A program made the position numbers and the translations under genes. Under the pieces are notes generated by a model. It had not been told where the DNA came from. It ran no database searches and saw only the letters and a list, made by a program, of their open reading frames with translations. From Adlercreutzia murintestinalis (GTDB taxonomy: Bacteria > Actinomycetota > Coriobacteriia > Coriobacteriales > Eggerthellaceae): a stretch of DNA of 64,000 nt. Shown here piece after piece: positions 9,826 through 37,655 of this stretch. Position 1 is the stretch's first letter, and each line of letters opens with the position of its first letter. The stretch is taken from the NCBI RefSeq assembly GCF_943192905.1, contig NZ_CALPCC010000010.1, positions 24,146-88,145 of the forward strand, in the 5' to 3' direction.

Positions 9826-10056
9826 AATCTCCTCGCTTTCTGCAGCGCAGAAGATGGCCGGATCGTAACCTGTGGCAAGAAGAAAGCGCCTGATGGTGAA
9901 ACCCGACCACGAGAGCTTCCTCTGTACCGTGATCAGATTTACGCGCCATCAAGCGCCACATGTGTCGTTTGCAGTTCTTATTCAATTGGCGAGAAGCATA
10001 TCACGAAAAAGCCTCCGTGCTGATTTTTCGAATCTGTAAACGGCAGCAACACAGGG

Positions 10057-10116
10057 CAACACAGGGGACAGGTTAGTGTGTTGGCGCCCGAACACACTAA
10101 CCTGTCCCCTGTGTTG
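10057..10116. repeat. REP family 1 palindrome, perfect 26-bp stem
   Basis: The arms at 10057-10082 and 10091-10116 are perfect reverse complements of 26 bp around an 8-nt loop (GGCGCCCG). The core is ACAGGGGACAGGTTAGTGTG. Imperfect complementarity continues outward. The same core brackets the RAYT at 19.3-20.2 kb and recurs at 37.56 kb. Confidence 0.9.
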
Positions 10117-10136
10117 TCCCTGTGCTATACACGACG

Positions 10137-18385: not shown

Positions 18386-19372
18386 ATGGGGAAGACGGGA
18401 ATCTTGCTGCTGAATACGGGAAGCCCCGAGGCTCCGACCTCGGACGCGGTGCGTTCCTATCTGGCCGAGTTCCTCACCGATCCGCGGATCTGCCCCATGA
18501 ACCCGCGCATCTGGAGCTTTCTGCTCAACCGATTCATCCTCCCGAAAAGGTCGACGGCCTCCGCCGCCAAGTATGCAGCCATCTGGACGGAGGCGGGATC
18601 CCCGCTTGACGTGACCATGCGCTCACTTGCGGGTAGGCTGGAGGCGTCGCTTCGCTTTGCCGACGAGGACGTGGCGGTGGCCCGCGCCATGAGCTACGGG
18701 AAGCCTTCGGTGGGCGAGGCGCTGCGCGGCTTGGTCGACCGGGGATGCGGCCGCATCGTCGCGATCCCGCTCTATCCGCAAAGCGCTTTCAGCACGACGG
18801 GTGCCGTGCACGACAAGCTGGACGAGGCGCTTGCGGCGCTGGATCACGCGCCCGAGGTCGCATTCGTTGATGATTACTACGAGGAAGGCGCCTACATCGA
18901 CGCCGTGGCGGAATCGATAAGGGCTGCCGGGTTCGGCCAAGGAACGTCGGACAGGCTGCTCTTCGCCTTCCACTCCATCCCCATCTCGGACATCAAAGGT
19001 GGCGATGCCTATCCCGAGCAGACTCTCTGGACCGCCCAGGCTGTCGCTACCAAGCTTGGCCTGTCGGATGCTGAATGGCGGGTCGGGTACCAGAGCCGCT
19101 TCGACAAGAGCCGATCGTGGCTCGGGCCTTCCGTGAATGCCGTGCTGGAAGGGTTTCCCGAAAGCTATTCGGACCTGTTCGTGGTCGCCCCCAACTTTTC
19201 GGTCGACTGCCTTGAGACGCTCTACGACATCGATATCGTCCTGCGCCGCAGATATGAGGGCGCGGGCCGGAGACTCCGTTACGTTGCATGTCTCAACGAC
19301 TCGGACAGCCATGTAGGGCTTTTAAATGAGCTTGTCGTAGCACAGGGGATCGTAGCACAGGGGACAGGTTAG
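18386..19372 (+). CDS. hemH: Ferrochelatase (HemH/CpfC family)
   Basis: It inserts ferrous iron into a porphyrin; in Gram-positive actinomycetes the substrate is usually coproporphyrin III. The opening GILLLNTGSPEAP, the active-site histidine H196 (FAFHSIP) and glutamate E277 (FSVDCLETLYDI) are all present. Length 328 is normal. The end is odd: after LNELV the last codons are read from a REP family 1 repeat, giving VAQGIVAQGTG and a TAG lying inside the repeat's GGTTAG. No other heme genes are in the window. Neighbouring iron-type ABC/AraC genes may be functionally linked. Confidence 0.92.
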   Translation: MGKTGILLLNTGSPEAPTSDAVRSYLAEFLTDPRICPMNPRIWSFLLNRFILPKRSTASAAKYAAIWTEAGSPLDVTMRSLAGRLEASLRFADEDVAVARAMSYGKPSVGEALRGLVDRGCGRIVAIPLYPQSAFSTTGAVHDKLDEALAALDHAPEVAFVDDYYEEGAYIDAVAESIRAAGFGQGTSDRLLFAFHSIPISDIKGGDAYPEQTLWTAQAVATKLGLSDAEWRVGYQSRFDKSRSWLGPSVNAVLEGFPESYSDLFVVAPNFSVDCLETLYDIDIVLRRRYEGAGRRLRYVACLNDSDSHVGLLNELVVAQGIVAQGTG

Positions 19373-19378
19373 TGTGTT
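19338..19378 (+). repeat. REP family 1, left flank of the RAYT
   Basis: A short copy GTAGCACAGGGGATC is followed by GTAGCACAGGGGACAGGTTA and GTGTGTT. It is in inverted orientation relative to the copies at 20172-20236. It contains the hemH stop codon (19370-19372) and touches the RAYT stop codon. Confidence 0.88.
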
Positions 19379-20130
19379 CAAGCGCTCATTCTTCTTACGA
19401 TCCCAACGGAAAGACCGGTAAGACGACTTGTCTGCCGAATCGAAAGCCCGGCTTCAAGAAGCAAGGGTACGGCTTCGGACTGCTCCTCTTGCGACAATGC
19501 CATGAAATCCTCAACCGAGGAGCATCCGGTAATGTCGAAGATGATCTTCTTTGCATCGTCATCAATGAAGTGCCGCCTTCCGTTCTCCGAAACCTCAAGA
19601 CATTCATCCTCGTTTGAAGCCTCGGTGAAGCGTATCAGCTCTTCGATGCTGATAATCTGATTCACATAATCTGTATCAGTGATCCCCTCGCCGATAAGAT
19701 AGTCGCGATAGCTGCTATATGGAAATTCTTCCGGATGAGCACATGCGCATGCTTTAACGGGGTTCATGTGAATGTAGCGCAATACGGTCAGAAGGTATGA
19801 GTCGTCTTCAACCGGCTCGCTTTTGAAGCGCTCTTGAAAGAGGTGCCCGATCCTGTCGTATTTTGTGTTGTACCAAGTGGCGTATCTGGTGGCGATTCGC
19901 TGGATGGTGCTAGAAATGCCCCCTTCCCCCTCTTTGATTAAAAGGTGGACATGGTTGCCCATGAGACAATAGGCAAGAAGTTTGCAGCCACTGGCCATAC
20001 GGCTATGTGCGAGTTCGTACAGGAATCTCAAACGATCATCGGCGCTATTAAAGATGAGTTGCCGATCAACTCCGCGCAAAATAACATGATAAATGCCGCT
20101 TGCTGACATCTTCCGTGCGGTTCTTGGCAA
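19378..20130 (-). CDS. REP-associated tyrosine transposase (RAYT, Y1_Tnp/IS200-like)
   Basis: A single-strand HUH nuclease-transposase of 250 residues. The metal-binding HxH is in LMGNHVHLLI (H60, H62) and the probable nucleophile is Y119 in LRYIHMNPVKA, the position used in REP transposases. RIGHLFQERFKS is also family-typical. A C-terminal extension ends with an HTH-like LSIRQTSRLTGLSVGIVRR. TTG 20130 has GGGAGGATTCTT before it. It lies tail-to-tail with hemH, 5 bp apart, and is bracketed by inverted REP family 1 copies; other copies at 10.06 and 37.56 kb have no transposase. GC content is lower than its neighbours, consistent with transfer. Confidence 0.92.
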   Translation of the reverse strand: MPRTARKMSASGIYHVILRGVDRQLIFNSADDRLRFLYELAHSRMASGCKLLAYCLMGNHVHLLIKEGEGGISSTIQRIATRYATWYNTKYDRIGHLFQERFKSEPVEDDSYLLTVLRYIHMNPVKACACAHPEEFPYSSYRDYLIGEGITDTDYVNQIISIEELIRFTEASNEDECLEVSENGRRHFIDDDAKKIIFDITGCSSVEDFMALSQEEQSEAVPLLLEAGLSIRQTSRLTGLSVGIVRRMSA

Positions 20131-20171
20131 AAGAATCCTCCCGTGCCGTCTGGGTAATATGGGCTGTCATG

Positions 20172-20236
20172 CTAGCACACTAACCTGTCCCCTGTGTTCT
20201 AGCACACTAACCTGTCCCCTGTGTTATGCCCTGTGT
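20172..20236 (-). repeat. REP family 1, right flank of the RAYT (tandem copies)
   Basis: Two tandem copies of CTAGCACACTAACCTGTCCC plus CTGTGTT, with a 27-bp period, are followed by a partial ATGCCCTGTGTTAGG. They are inverted relative to the left flank. The stop codon of the permease-lipoprotein gene (20207-20209) lies inside the second copy. Confidence 0.88.
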
Positions 20237-22102
20237 TAGGCGGTTGACGTAGCGAAGGCCATCCTTGGTGAGGCGGAAGCTGCGGGCGATGATGTCGTCC
20301 ACGGGGGCGGCTTTCCGGGTTTGGGTGTCGTAGGCTTGAAGTCGTGAGTCGCCGTCGATGAAGTAGATGGCGCTGCCGTCGAAGGCGATGTTGCCGCTGG
20401 CAGGGATGGCGAGCGTCTGCGTCGACCGCGTGGCCCGGTCCATCTCGACAATTTCGTCGTTCGCCACGAAGAAGATGCTGCGGTCATTCAGGAAGAAGCC
20501 GCGGCAATCTGGTAGAAACGCCCACGTGTCGCCGACGGTGTAGTCGATTCCCAGCAAAGATCGGTCGCTGTCGGCGATCTGCTCGAAGATAACCTGGCGC
20601 TCCAGCGTGTCCGCATCAAGGCGCACAATGCTGAACTGGGTGAACGTGCTGCCGTAATTGCCGACCCGGTCGACATGCTGTCGGGTGCGAGAGGTTAGAT
20701 AGTATACGCACGGGCCGGCTACGTAGACTCCCTTCACGAGCTCTTCGTCCGAAAAGGCACCGAAAAGAGGCGACGCCTCCACGGTCATCGCGGTAGCCCC
20801 CTCACGTTCCATAACGTAGGTTCGGGTCTCTTCGTCGAACGTTACGACAATGCCGTCACCCTCCAAGCTCTGGGCATCAGAGTTGTAGACCACGGTCTCA
20901 GTCGTCCCAGAAGAGCACCCGGTGACAGGCAGCAGAAGCGCAACGGCGAGCAAAAGCGCGACCGCCGACCTGGCTCTTCTGCCGCGGCGGGGCCTTCTCG
21001 CCAGAAGCCAGCAGTTCGTGCTGCAGCGCACGGCCCAGTACAGCGCAAACGTCACGATCGCCACCGAGATCACCGCCACCAGCGCGAATTCCCAAGGGGA
21101 AACCTCAACGAACAGGGCGATGGAATCCCCGCCGTCGCCCTGCGCAAAGCGACTGCCTTCTAAGAACCCCGTCGCAAGCAAGAACGCCAGGGGAAGGGGA
21201 AGGCGGAAGACGAATTGCTCCGGCATGCCCATAAGAGGTATAAGGGTGACGGCAGCGCCGATGAGCGCCGTCAGAGCATGCTTTCTTGCCAACAGCGACA
21301 CGAAAAGCAGCAAAGAGGCGAGCATCGCCGCGCCGAAGCAGCGAAGGCCGGCGGCCGCAACGAACGCCTCGGCAAGAGAGAGGCTCTTCGTGCTGGCGCC
21401 GAACAGCGAAATGCTCTGCAGCGGATAGTCCCCATGGGGTAGGCCGTATTTCGCCGAGAAGAATGCAAGCTGGGCGAGGGAAAGCGCCGCACAGAGGGCG
21501 ACGACAGAGCCGACGACGATGAGTTCTTTACTCCGTGCGCTCGCGCGGCCTTGAGGAGTCGTGCGCAGCAGCGCATCCATCTGGCAAGCACATTCCGAGC
21601 AAAAGGCCGTGGCGGCCAGGTACAAGATGGCCAGCAGCACCGGGAAATCCAGCGTCTGGGCACCAAGCAGCCCCGCCCAGCCGTTCGTCTCAAGGAAGTA
21701 ACGGTTGGGTGTGTTCTCCGATATATAGAGATACTGCTGGTAGGCGACGTCGAATCCCCGCTCGTGAGCCAGCGTCTCATCGGATCGGGCGGTCGCGCGC
21801 TCGTAGTCCTCGGCGGAGATGATCCCGTCGTAGTAGCCTTCCCGTGCTTCGGCGCGGGCGGCCTTCGCCTCTGTGATGGCTTCGCTCCTTTCTTGAAGCC
21901 ACACCTCTTTCTGACCATCCAAGGCCCCGTCAAGCGTTTCCAGACACCAGACGTAATCGCCCCGGTTCTCTTCCATGGCGACATTCTGGGGCCGATCGGT
22001 CGCTGCCAGCCAAGCCACGCTGGTCACCAGGGCTGCTAACAGGCAGGCCAAACCCCGCTGCACGATCATGAGCTTCTTCCACTCGTAGGCGAGCACCCTC
22101 AT
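20207..22102 (-). CDS. ABC-2 type permease with C-terminal lipoprotein-like domain
   Basis: Residues 1 to about 390 are an ABC-2 permease: the opening EWKKLMIVQRGLACLLAALV is a membrane helix, then an extracytoplasmic loop of about 120 residues and five more helices. At about 400-425 a second hydrophobic stretch ends LLPVTGCSSG, a perfect lipobox, followed by about 200 residues resembling a beta-propeller (AFDGSAIYFIDGDSRLQAYD). It therefore reads like a permease fused to a lipoprotein. Its start overlaps the previous permease as ATGA. The last residues LTQGITQGTG and the TAG come from REP family 1. It is last of a seven-gene unit. Confidence 0.82.
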   Translation of the reverse strand: MRVLAYEWKKLMIVQRGLACLLAALVTSVAWLAATDRPQNVAMEENRGDYVWCLETLDGALDGQKEVWLQERSEAITEAKAARAEAREGYYDGIISAEDYERATARSDETLAHERGFDVAYQQYLYISENTPNRYFLETNGWAGLLGAQTLDFPVLLAILYLAATAFCSECACQMDALLRTTPQGRASARSKELIVVGSVVALCAALSLAQLAFFSAKYGLPHGDYPLQSISLFGASTKSLSLAEAFVAAAGLRCFGAAMLASLLLFVSLLARKHALTALIGAAVTLIPLMGMPEQFVFRLPLPLAFLLATGFLEGSRFAQGDGGDSIALFVEVSPWEFALVAVISVAIVTFALYWAVRCSTNCWLLARRPRRGRRARSAVALLLAVALLLPVTGCSSGTTETVVYNSDAQSLEGDGIVVTFDEETRTYVMEREGATAMTVEASPLFGAFSDEELVKGVYVAGPCVYYLTSRTRQHVDRVGNYGSTFTQFSIVRLDADTLERQVIFEQIADSDRSLLGIDYTVGDTWAFLPDCRGFFLNDRSIFFVANDEIVEMDRATRSTQTLAIPASGNIAFDGSAIYFIDGDSRLQAYDTQTRKAAPVDDIIARSFRLTKDGLRYVNRLTQGITQGTG

Positions 22103-23316
22103 CGAGCCCTCCGTATCGGACAGAGGGCATTTCGCGGCGAGAGCATGTAGATGGCCACCGCAGCGATGAGCCCCACGACCAAGGAGAAGGCAAGCGCAGC
22201 CTGCCAGGACAGCACGGGAAAGCCTCCGATGTCCAGAAATTCCGTCTGGGCCAGAAGGGGGCGGCCCGCCAGCAGCGAGTAGGGATCGAGCGCCTTCGCC
22301 CACACAAGATGGGAATAGGCCACGCTCGCGCCGCCGACGACGAGCGCGGCGGTGAGCGCGAGGTTGGCGACAAGGGGAGCCAGGGCGTTTCCGCACCGCA
22401 GCGACACCGCAAGCCAGAGCATGCCCAAAGCCCAGAGCCCCGCGCCTCGCAGCGCTGCCGCCAGGACCGCGAACTGAAAAACGCTAAGGCCGACCGGCGC
22501 CTCTGCAAAGCTGGGGATGGCATACACCGGCTGCCCTAGGCCCTCGAAGGTGCCGAAGGCCGCTACGAAGCCCGCCAAGTCTAGCAGCGAGAACCACGCG
22601 GTCACCAGCAGCAAAAACCCGCTGACCGCCACCAATTTTGCGAGAATGGTGCGACTGCCGCCGTTGGGGTTCGTGAGCAGCAGCCGGTCCATCTGGGTTT
22701 CCCGTTCCGTTGTGAAGGTGCCGGTGACGCCGTAGAGCCCCAGAAGCAGCACGAGAACGAGGGAGAAGTCGTAATTCAGGTAATAGTTGGCCATCTCTGT
22801 GTAGGCGAAGGCGGGCACCGTGCGGCCGGCGTAGATCTGGTATATGGCAGCGCTTTCCCGCTGTTGGTACAAGGCGTCGGCCTGGGCTGCAACTGCGGCG
22901 TTCTGGCGCGCCTTCTCCGCCACTGATGCGGCGCGCTCGCTATATTCGTAGCAATACTGCATGGGATCGACGAAGTACTTCTCCAGAAGATTCCTGTCGC
23001 TGTAGAGGTTTCCCGTCAGGGAGTCGGCATCATCGGTGGCGGTGTTGGCGGTCATGTCCGCCGTGGCTTGGGCTAAGGGCTGCCATGTCGCCAACAGCTG
23101 CTGCACCTTTTCGGGCGTGATGGGGCCTCGGTACTGATCGTAGAGGCTCCAGTGAACGGTGCGCCAGCTGCGCTCGTCGCCTCCGTCGGACAGAAACGAA
23201 TAAGCGTTCCATTCGCTGTAGATTTTGACCAGATTAACAGCGCTGAACAGGGCGAAGAGCACAAGGATCGAGCGCCGGCAGAAAAGCTTGACGAATTCGC
23301 AGCGGATCAGTCGCAT
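22099..23316 (-). CDS. ABC-2 type permease
   Basis: The 405-residue membrane protein has an N-terminal helix (RRSILVLFALFSAVNLVKIY), an extracytoplasmic domain of about 140 residues rich in Ala, Gln and Tyr, and five or six further helices beginning NYDFSLVLVLLLGLYGVTGTFTTERE. The layout matches exporters of the lantibiotic-immunity/bacitracin type. ATG 23316 overlaps the end of the ATPase gene by 10 bp. It probably forms the channel with the next permease and the upstream ATPase. Confidence 0.85.
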   Translation of the reverse strand: MRLIRCEFVKLFCRRSILVLFALFSAVNLVKIYSEWNAYSFLSDGGDERSWRTVHWSLYDQYRGPITPEKVQQLLATWQPLAQATADMTANTATDDADSLTGNLYSDRNLLEKYFVDPMQYCYEYSERAASVAEKARQNAAVAAQADALYQQRESAAIYQIYAGRTVPAFAYTEMANYYLNYDFSLVLVLLLGLYGVTGTFTTERETQMDRLLLTNPNGGSRTILAKLVAVSGFLLLVTAWFSLLDLAGFVAAFGTFEGLGQPVYAIPSFAEAPVGLSVFQFAVLAAALRGAGLWALGMLWLAVSLRCGNALAPLVANLALTAALVVGGASVAYSHLVWAKALDPYSLLAGRPLLAQTEFLDIGGFPVLSWQAALAFSLVVGLIAAVAIYMLSPRNALCPIRRAR

Positions 23317-37557: not shown

Positions 37558-37655
37558 CAACACAGGGGACAGGTTAGTGTGTTTTCGTGAAACGGATGAA
37601 CGCTCGAACACACCAACCTGTCCCCTGTGTTCCCTGTTTCCTGTCCCCTGTGTTT
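37558..37655. repeat. REP family 1 pair without transposase
   Basis: The left arm 37558-37583 and right arm 37607-37631 are complementary with one mismatch around a 23-nt loop, with the ACAGGGGACAGGTTAGTGTG core. A further partial copy CCTGTCCCCTGTGTTT follows to about 37655. It lies between convergent gene ends. Confidence 0.88.

Follow-up and report, generated by a model that had tools for sequence, protein, structure and literature searches.

What is the transposase gene bounded by inverted repeats in a 64,000-nucleotide stretch of the Adlercreutzia murintestinalis genome (assembly GCF_943192905.1, contig NZ_CALPCC010000010.1, positions 24,146 to 88,145; this whole stretch is here called the window), and how did pairs of the same repeat come to lie elsewhere in the window with no transposase between them? 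We conclude that this is probably a small mobile element, whose Y1/HUH enzyme is predicted to cut single-stranded hairpins and has likely spread pairs of them to the ends of nearby genes. A wider reading takes TnpA-Y1 subclass 2.1, to which we assign the enzyme below, as a large and mostly unstudied REPIN-type system with a loop tag, a swapped stem key, trimming at a run of G's, and short-range jumps around the gene; we hold this more tentatively, as a possibility somewhat short of an even chance. Genomes, contigs, and loci of relatives are designated by G, C, and L numbers.

The enzyme was recognized in a profile search, in which PF01797 (Y1_Tnp) scored 54.4 bits against a cutoff of 23, and its gene was the sole Y1_Tnp match in the 2.04-Mb draft assembly. 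Residues H60, H62, and Y119 did not vary in either of two alignments (41 and 58 rows), bearing out an earlier sequence-only reading of the window that had proposed a Y1 HUH transposase with these residues. The TTG start assigned in that reading is likewise supported, because homologues open with MPRxARK at the equivalent position. Profile matches to the helix-turn-helix (HTH)-like tail of the window protein were weak (E values of 0.13 and 0.35), as were those of HTH_23, found in 14 of 41 alignment rows at E values up to 1 (best, 0.0012); a structure model placed helices at residues 213 to 248. The closest solved fold was that of Escherichia coli TnpA-REP, in a comparison that barely covered the C-terminal third.

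Inverted repeats flank the transposase gene, as the sequence-only reading had it, and the two ends are identical over 21 bp. Two full copies rather than one stand at the right end, and truncated outer copies lie beyond the bracket (Table 1). The sequence GGGGACAG occurs in all seven full units of the window, and the core ACAGGGGACAGGTTAG gave eight window matches at three or fewer mismatches (0.22 expected; maximum of 2 in 100 shuffles). The perfect 26-bp stem reported at 10057-10116 (locus A) was recovered without a transposase, and the near-perfect one reported near 37558 (locus C) was set at 37559-37631, where 17 perfect bp are followed by one mismatch and further pairing. Folded as single-stranded DNA, both pairs stood well apart from shuffles (z scores of −11.7 for locus A and −7.9 for locus C). 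By eye, truncated copies were visible at five of the six repeat borders in the window. Recurrence of the core elsewhere in the window also held when it was counted across the assembly (2.04 Mb in 55 contigs, a 91% complete draft): of eight matches at two or fewer mismatches, seven were at the three window loci and one was on another contig. That lone two-mismatch match may be due to chance, because a reversed-pattern control over the whole assembly also gave one. All three repeat loci of the assembly fall within 28 kb. Under a uniform placement model in which the genome is a single line without contig boundaries, the chance of both pairs falling within 17.8 kb of the gene is ∼3e-4, a post hoc figure.

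Relatives showed which parts of the unit are conserved. A protein match was present in 58 of 138 genomes of the host's family and the 14-base core of the window in just 3 of 138, so the repeats differ between elements. We assembled 110 loci, comprising 30 matches from the 138-genome search and the 80 best among 567 confirmed stretches; at least one duplicate is counted, since L195 and L022 very probably represent a single element. The idea that the system might be special to Coriobacteriia is ruled out, with 78 of 80 named loci lying elsewhere by title. Among the 102 of 110 loci flanked on each side by 300 bases or more, an inverted repeat exceeded the 99% null score at 69 and the null maximum at 43. 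GGG[AT]C was found in both flanks at 87 of 105 loci, compared with 2 of 48 control pairs taken at a distance of 3 kb; both flanks carried GGGGAC at 58 of 105 loci and the strict form GGGGWSAS at 12. The common unit consists of a variable arm, a GGGGAC-type loop, and a complementary arm. As a side observation, G080, a single contig of 1.4 Mb, holds ten homologue matches, the most in the 138-genome search.

A first, loose hairpin scan that allowed wobble pairs was too weak to use (a stem of 6 in 199 of 294 motif instances, with 110.7 expected, and in 452 of 1067 distant control sites) and was replaced by a stricter permutation test, in which the motif nearest the gene was taken, a Watson-Crick run of at least 6 was sought across its sides, and the sides were permuted among loci. 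Such stems were present in 50 of 96 upstream units (6.6 when permuted) and 37 of 85 downstream units (5.0). The covariation score of 36 units was 0.85, versus 0.20 for shuffled and at most 0.16 for slid alignments; this set was picked for having a stem, so the permutation test of nearest motifs is the fair one. Alignment A3 contains one window unit and, from the 40 selected units, all but five (L135, L168, L181, L184, and L187). Across the 40 selected units, protein similarity was correlated with similarity of the loop (r = 0.27; P = 0.0015) and, less strongly, with that of the arms (r = 0.16; P = 0.007), and a clean split between loop and stem recognition was not seen among them. An arm stretch of at least 7 nt was repeated outside the outermost unit in 29 of 99 cases (permuted mean, 4.0; maximum, 9). 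At L202 (G068:C1:2211100-2213700), around positions 1225 to 1275, three tandem truncated arm copies TGTGACAAGGG precede a full unit.

Copies of the relatives' units were also concentrated in patches. The five genomes in which GGGACGGTTCT was counted gave 109, 263, 19, 93, and 17 matches, with 0, 0, 0, 3, and 2 in reversed controls. In three genomes (G142, G143, and G147, chosen as copy-rich and not a random sample), one patch encloses the sole detected transposase gene, as in the window. All 26 units in a 100-kb section of G142:C11 lie at 29.4 to 50.4 kb, with the gene at 33.6 to 34.4 kb, and 43 of 53 units in a 95-kb section of G143:C40 lie at 37.3 to 59.6 kb, with the gene at 47.1 to 47.9 kb. 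Extra copies within ∼19 kb around the gene numbered 15 in G142 (genome mean, 0.67) and 35 in G143 (mean, 1.08). In G147, with 71 matches, 33 of 45 loci had a neighboring locus no more than 5 kb off (uniform mean, 5.8; maximum, 16), and four extra loci were found no more than 10 kb from the gene (0.27 expected). Across 24 loci, copies within 9 kb gave 41 extra near versus 25 far, a difference that is carried by a few rich loci and is not decisive. In a separate observation, units occupy many gaps between predicted genes across 25 kb at G143:C6:329376-354288 (L266 and L267), and none occur in the 49 kb preceding that patch.

A comparison of related genomes indicates that pairs insert. G068 carries five scattered inverted pairs of ∼80 bp each, one of which (L201) is missing from G066, where the flanks are 93 to 94% identical, and from G067. 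As compared here, the presence or absence of the L201 pair is a difference between species, not movement seen. In G066 itself, 20 places resemble the 80-bp pair; among the 19 that were inspected, a strict motif scan gave a clean inverted pair at 8 and none at 11. The flanks of the third transposase gene of G068 hold a GGGGACGGGGATGATGTCTCA unit and those of the second transposase gene of G066 a looser one, which is suggestive only of these two as candidate cognates of the 80-bp pairs. Such pairs could instead be remnants of complete elements that arrived separately and lost their genes, with no mobility of the pairs as such. The unequal spacers of the window pairs (8 nt at locus A and 23 nt at locus C) fit that account, as does G011, a genome of the same genus with a decayed transposase at the 3′ end of the gene bordering locus A and repeats of another stem, TGAACAGGGG. 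However, units are a near-constant 75 to 80 apart in the pairs of G068, G066, and G130 and 21 apart in G142, which repeated deletion is unlikely to yield, and G142, G143, and G147 each have one detected gene for tens of pairs. We therefore regard gene loss as an unlikely source of the transposase-free pairs.

Several observations weigh against mobile hairpin pairs as the explanation. The window genome is represented by a draft that is 91% complete. Single window units fold weakly alone (−1.2 to −2.7 kcal/mol) and were matched by 28, 107, and 83 of 200 shuffles; the case for hairpins thus rests on the relatives and on the pairs. Among relatives, changes on both sides of the stem were found in 6 of 6 pairs, which is not above shuffles (5.5), and within G142 or G143 there was no covariation beyond the shared stem. 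The arm stretch repeated outside the outermost unit was also seen inward of it in 20 of 99 cases, in part maybe as further full units. The occupied and empty L201 sites are not base-exact (∼10 to 15 nt are unaligned at the junction), G065 has other DNA at that site, and the loops of the G068 and G066 pairs do not resemble the sequence flanking the transposase gene at G068:C1:1011019. An exact empty site for the window element was not found, with G001 carrying other DNA beyond the aligned right-hand gene. The near-gene excess was small in G144 (2 versus 0.22) and G145 (2 versus 0.55) and absent in G146 (0 versus 0.07).

Dense patches without a detected transposase also occur (G142:C13; G143:C5, C6, and the first 20 kb of C1; G147:C9), so copies cluster away from the gene as well. 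These patches would suit a different account, in which the host keeps the pairs at gene 3′ ends as terminators or RNA-stabilizing hairpins and the patches reflect selection or permissive regions. The placement of copies agrees with it: a gene 3′ end was nearest for 57 of the 82 clusters outside genes (85 in all), against a background of 41 to 51% from crude gene calls. A retained host function accounts less well for patches with sharp edges, such as that of G143:C6 with 49 kb free of copies beside it, for stems replaced wholesale between elements, or for the pair that lies inside a coding region in G033 (L114; G033:C3:100800-102900, open reading frame 30-1730), and we consider it improbable.

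Based on the protein motifs and the repeat, the window element is best accounted for as a putative single-strand transposon of the TIRYT/TIRtron type, with an enzyme that fits TnpA-Y1 subclass 2.1. The type itself received its name in 2013, and the window element adds a member to it. The passages of PMC3733652 (Di Nocera et al. 2013) on TIRYTs and TIRtrons describe a RAYT-like (repetitive extragenic palindrome [REP]-associated tyrosine transposase-like) enzyme between long terminal inverted repeats, a GGGGWSAS motif, and repeat families whose members occur singly, in dimers, and in clusters; the inverted repeats are described there as unrelated to REPs, and some of them as partly or wholly self-complementary. 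The window has the catalytic Y1/HUH protein, inverted ends, and GGGGACAG, which fits GGGGWSAS exactly, whereas stem covariation, truncated outer copies, and gene-centered patches do not figure in those passages. Subclass 2.1 is given in the relevant parts of PMC6006769 (Quentin et al. 2018) as Bertels group 1, ranking second in size among the TnpA-Y1 subclasses (14.9% of strains), with a median length of 238, an HTH-like tail, and members in several phyla. Its motifs in Table 1 of that paper (NHVH, FQ, Y-I-H-x-NP, and SS) are present in our alignments. The same parts state that REP-like sequences near subclass 2.1 genes were not found by automatic or manual search, whereas in our set GGG[AT]C is present on both sides of the gene at 87 of 105 loci, and the units have the form of hairpins. 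The apparent additions to the record are a loop-borne tag on element-specific hairpin stems together with patch-wise spread, neither of which we found in the open-access literature. IS200/IS605 elements (IS608 and ISDra2) differ in the orientation of their ends, which here are inverted repeats, and the window element has in addition a loop motif, a protein ∼100 residues longer, and the HTH-like tail.

The layout of inverted hairpin pairs with a transposase, which the sequence-only reading had likened to REP/RAYT systems, stands, but membership in the classical, GTAG-tagged kind does not. In REP hairpins GTAG sits at the foot, in contrast to the GGGGAC-type motif in the loop here. A classical REP/RAYT system, in which, as in E. 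coli, GTAG-tagged hairpins are recognized and cleaved on the 5′ side of the stem, could draw on the nearest solved fold, on the resemblance of the inverted pairs to REPINs, and on a GTAG that adjoins the left unit, the only unit of the window to have one. Yet a GT[AG]G foot was found in just 1 of 40 related units (1.25 expected), the NCBI REP_Tyr_transpos model scored 68.9 bits, below its cutoff of 80, and the draft assembly has only three loci, although other genomes with elements of the window's type hold tens to hundreds of motif copies. Since foot tag, model score, and copy number all fail to agree with it, we reject classical membership as very unlikely; the window system may still work much like REP/RAYT. 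Sections of PMC3116915 (Bertels and Rainey 2011) on Pseudomonas describe inverted hairpin pairs that replicate, REPIN clusters beside RAYTs, and doublets that are mostly singlets spread through extragenic space. The inverted pairs and the clusters beside the transposase gene are the likeness, and the difference is that copies here form patches. The CGTC-tagged REPs of Di Nocera were also considered, CCGTCCCC being the complement of GGGGACGG, and were set aside because their tag, as described in PMC3733652, is at one repeat end and no transposase flanks them.

For the mobile element favored here, we propose that the enzyme would read both the loop motif and the hairpin shape, with the HTH-like tail helping to choose the cognate stem. 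Cutting by Y119 beside the G run could leave truncated copies, made of an arm plus GGG, at the borders. Excised pairs would mostly rejoin near the site of departure, either within the same replication fork or because the enzyme stays near its own gene, and reinsertion would prefer the 3′ ends of genes. If true, subclass 2.1 would have a code of its own, with GGGGAC as the loop tag and the stem as a freely swapped, element-specific key, and the constant loop on covarying stems would offer an exact substrate for testing. Patches of copies may record the jump distance of single-strand transposons, and the pairs would reshape gene ends, as new stop codons in the window and an in-frame protein linker in one relative suggest. 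The same layout in relatives from several phyla would make a little-studied transposon family testable.

Table 1. Coordinates of the transposase gene, repeats, and neighboring genes in the window
Feature	Position	Strand	Basis
Y1/HUH transposase gene, 250 aa, TTG start, H60/H62, Y119, HTH-like tail	19378..20130	-	Open reading frame, profile search, alignments, structure model
Left-end repeat unit: arm, GGGGACAGGTTAG loop, arm	19354..19378	+	Sequence and core scan
Truncated outer copy GTAGCACAGGGG, outside left unit	19338..19349	+	Sequence
Right-end inner repeat unit, inverted	20173..20198	-	Sequence and core scan
Right-end outer repeat unit, second full copy	20199..20225	-	Sequence and core scan
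Truncated outer copy AACACAGGG at right end	20229..20237	-	Sequence
Locus A, inverted pair without transposase, 8-nt spacer	10057..10116	.	Arms 10057-10082 / 10091-10116
Truncated outer copy AACACAGGG, left of locus A	10048..10056	+	Sequence
Truncated outer copy TAGCACAGGG, right of locus A	10118..10127	-	Sequence
Locus C, inverted pair without transposase	37559..37631	.	Units 37559-37583 and 37607-37631, one arm mismatch
Truncated third copy AACACAGGGGACAGG, right of locus C	37640..37654	-	Sequence and core scan
Ferrochelatase gene, stop codon inside left repeat	18386..19372	+	PF00762
Right neighbor gene, ended by right repeat, shorter than in G001	20207..22396	-	Alignment to G001

The two genes that converge on the element (18386-19372 and 20207-22396) both terminate on a repeat-encoded QGTG-stop; in one frame, the repeat unit serves as a ready-made gene end. 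The right-hand gene had no Pfam match. Its counterpart in G001 (82% DNA identity) has 48 further residues beyond VNRL, a point at which the window reads TQGITQGTG instead. Local alignment to the G001 gene starts at 20238, directly past the outermost truncated repeat, so the element sits within the end of the right-hand gene or has taken its place. Window positions 20238-23044 share 82 to 83% DNA identity with G001, which belongs to another genus, and the main matches of the same-genus G011 to other parts of the window are 70 to 77% identical. Given these identities, horizontal exchange or mixed ancestry of the contig is possible. At the G033 locus, the open reading frame that contains the repeat pair encodes a 566-residue fusion of a HisZ-type histidyl-tRNA-synthetase-like part and HisG, joined in frame by a repeat-encoded linker.
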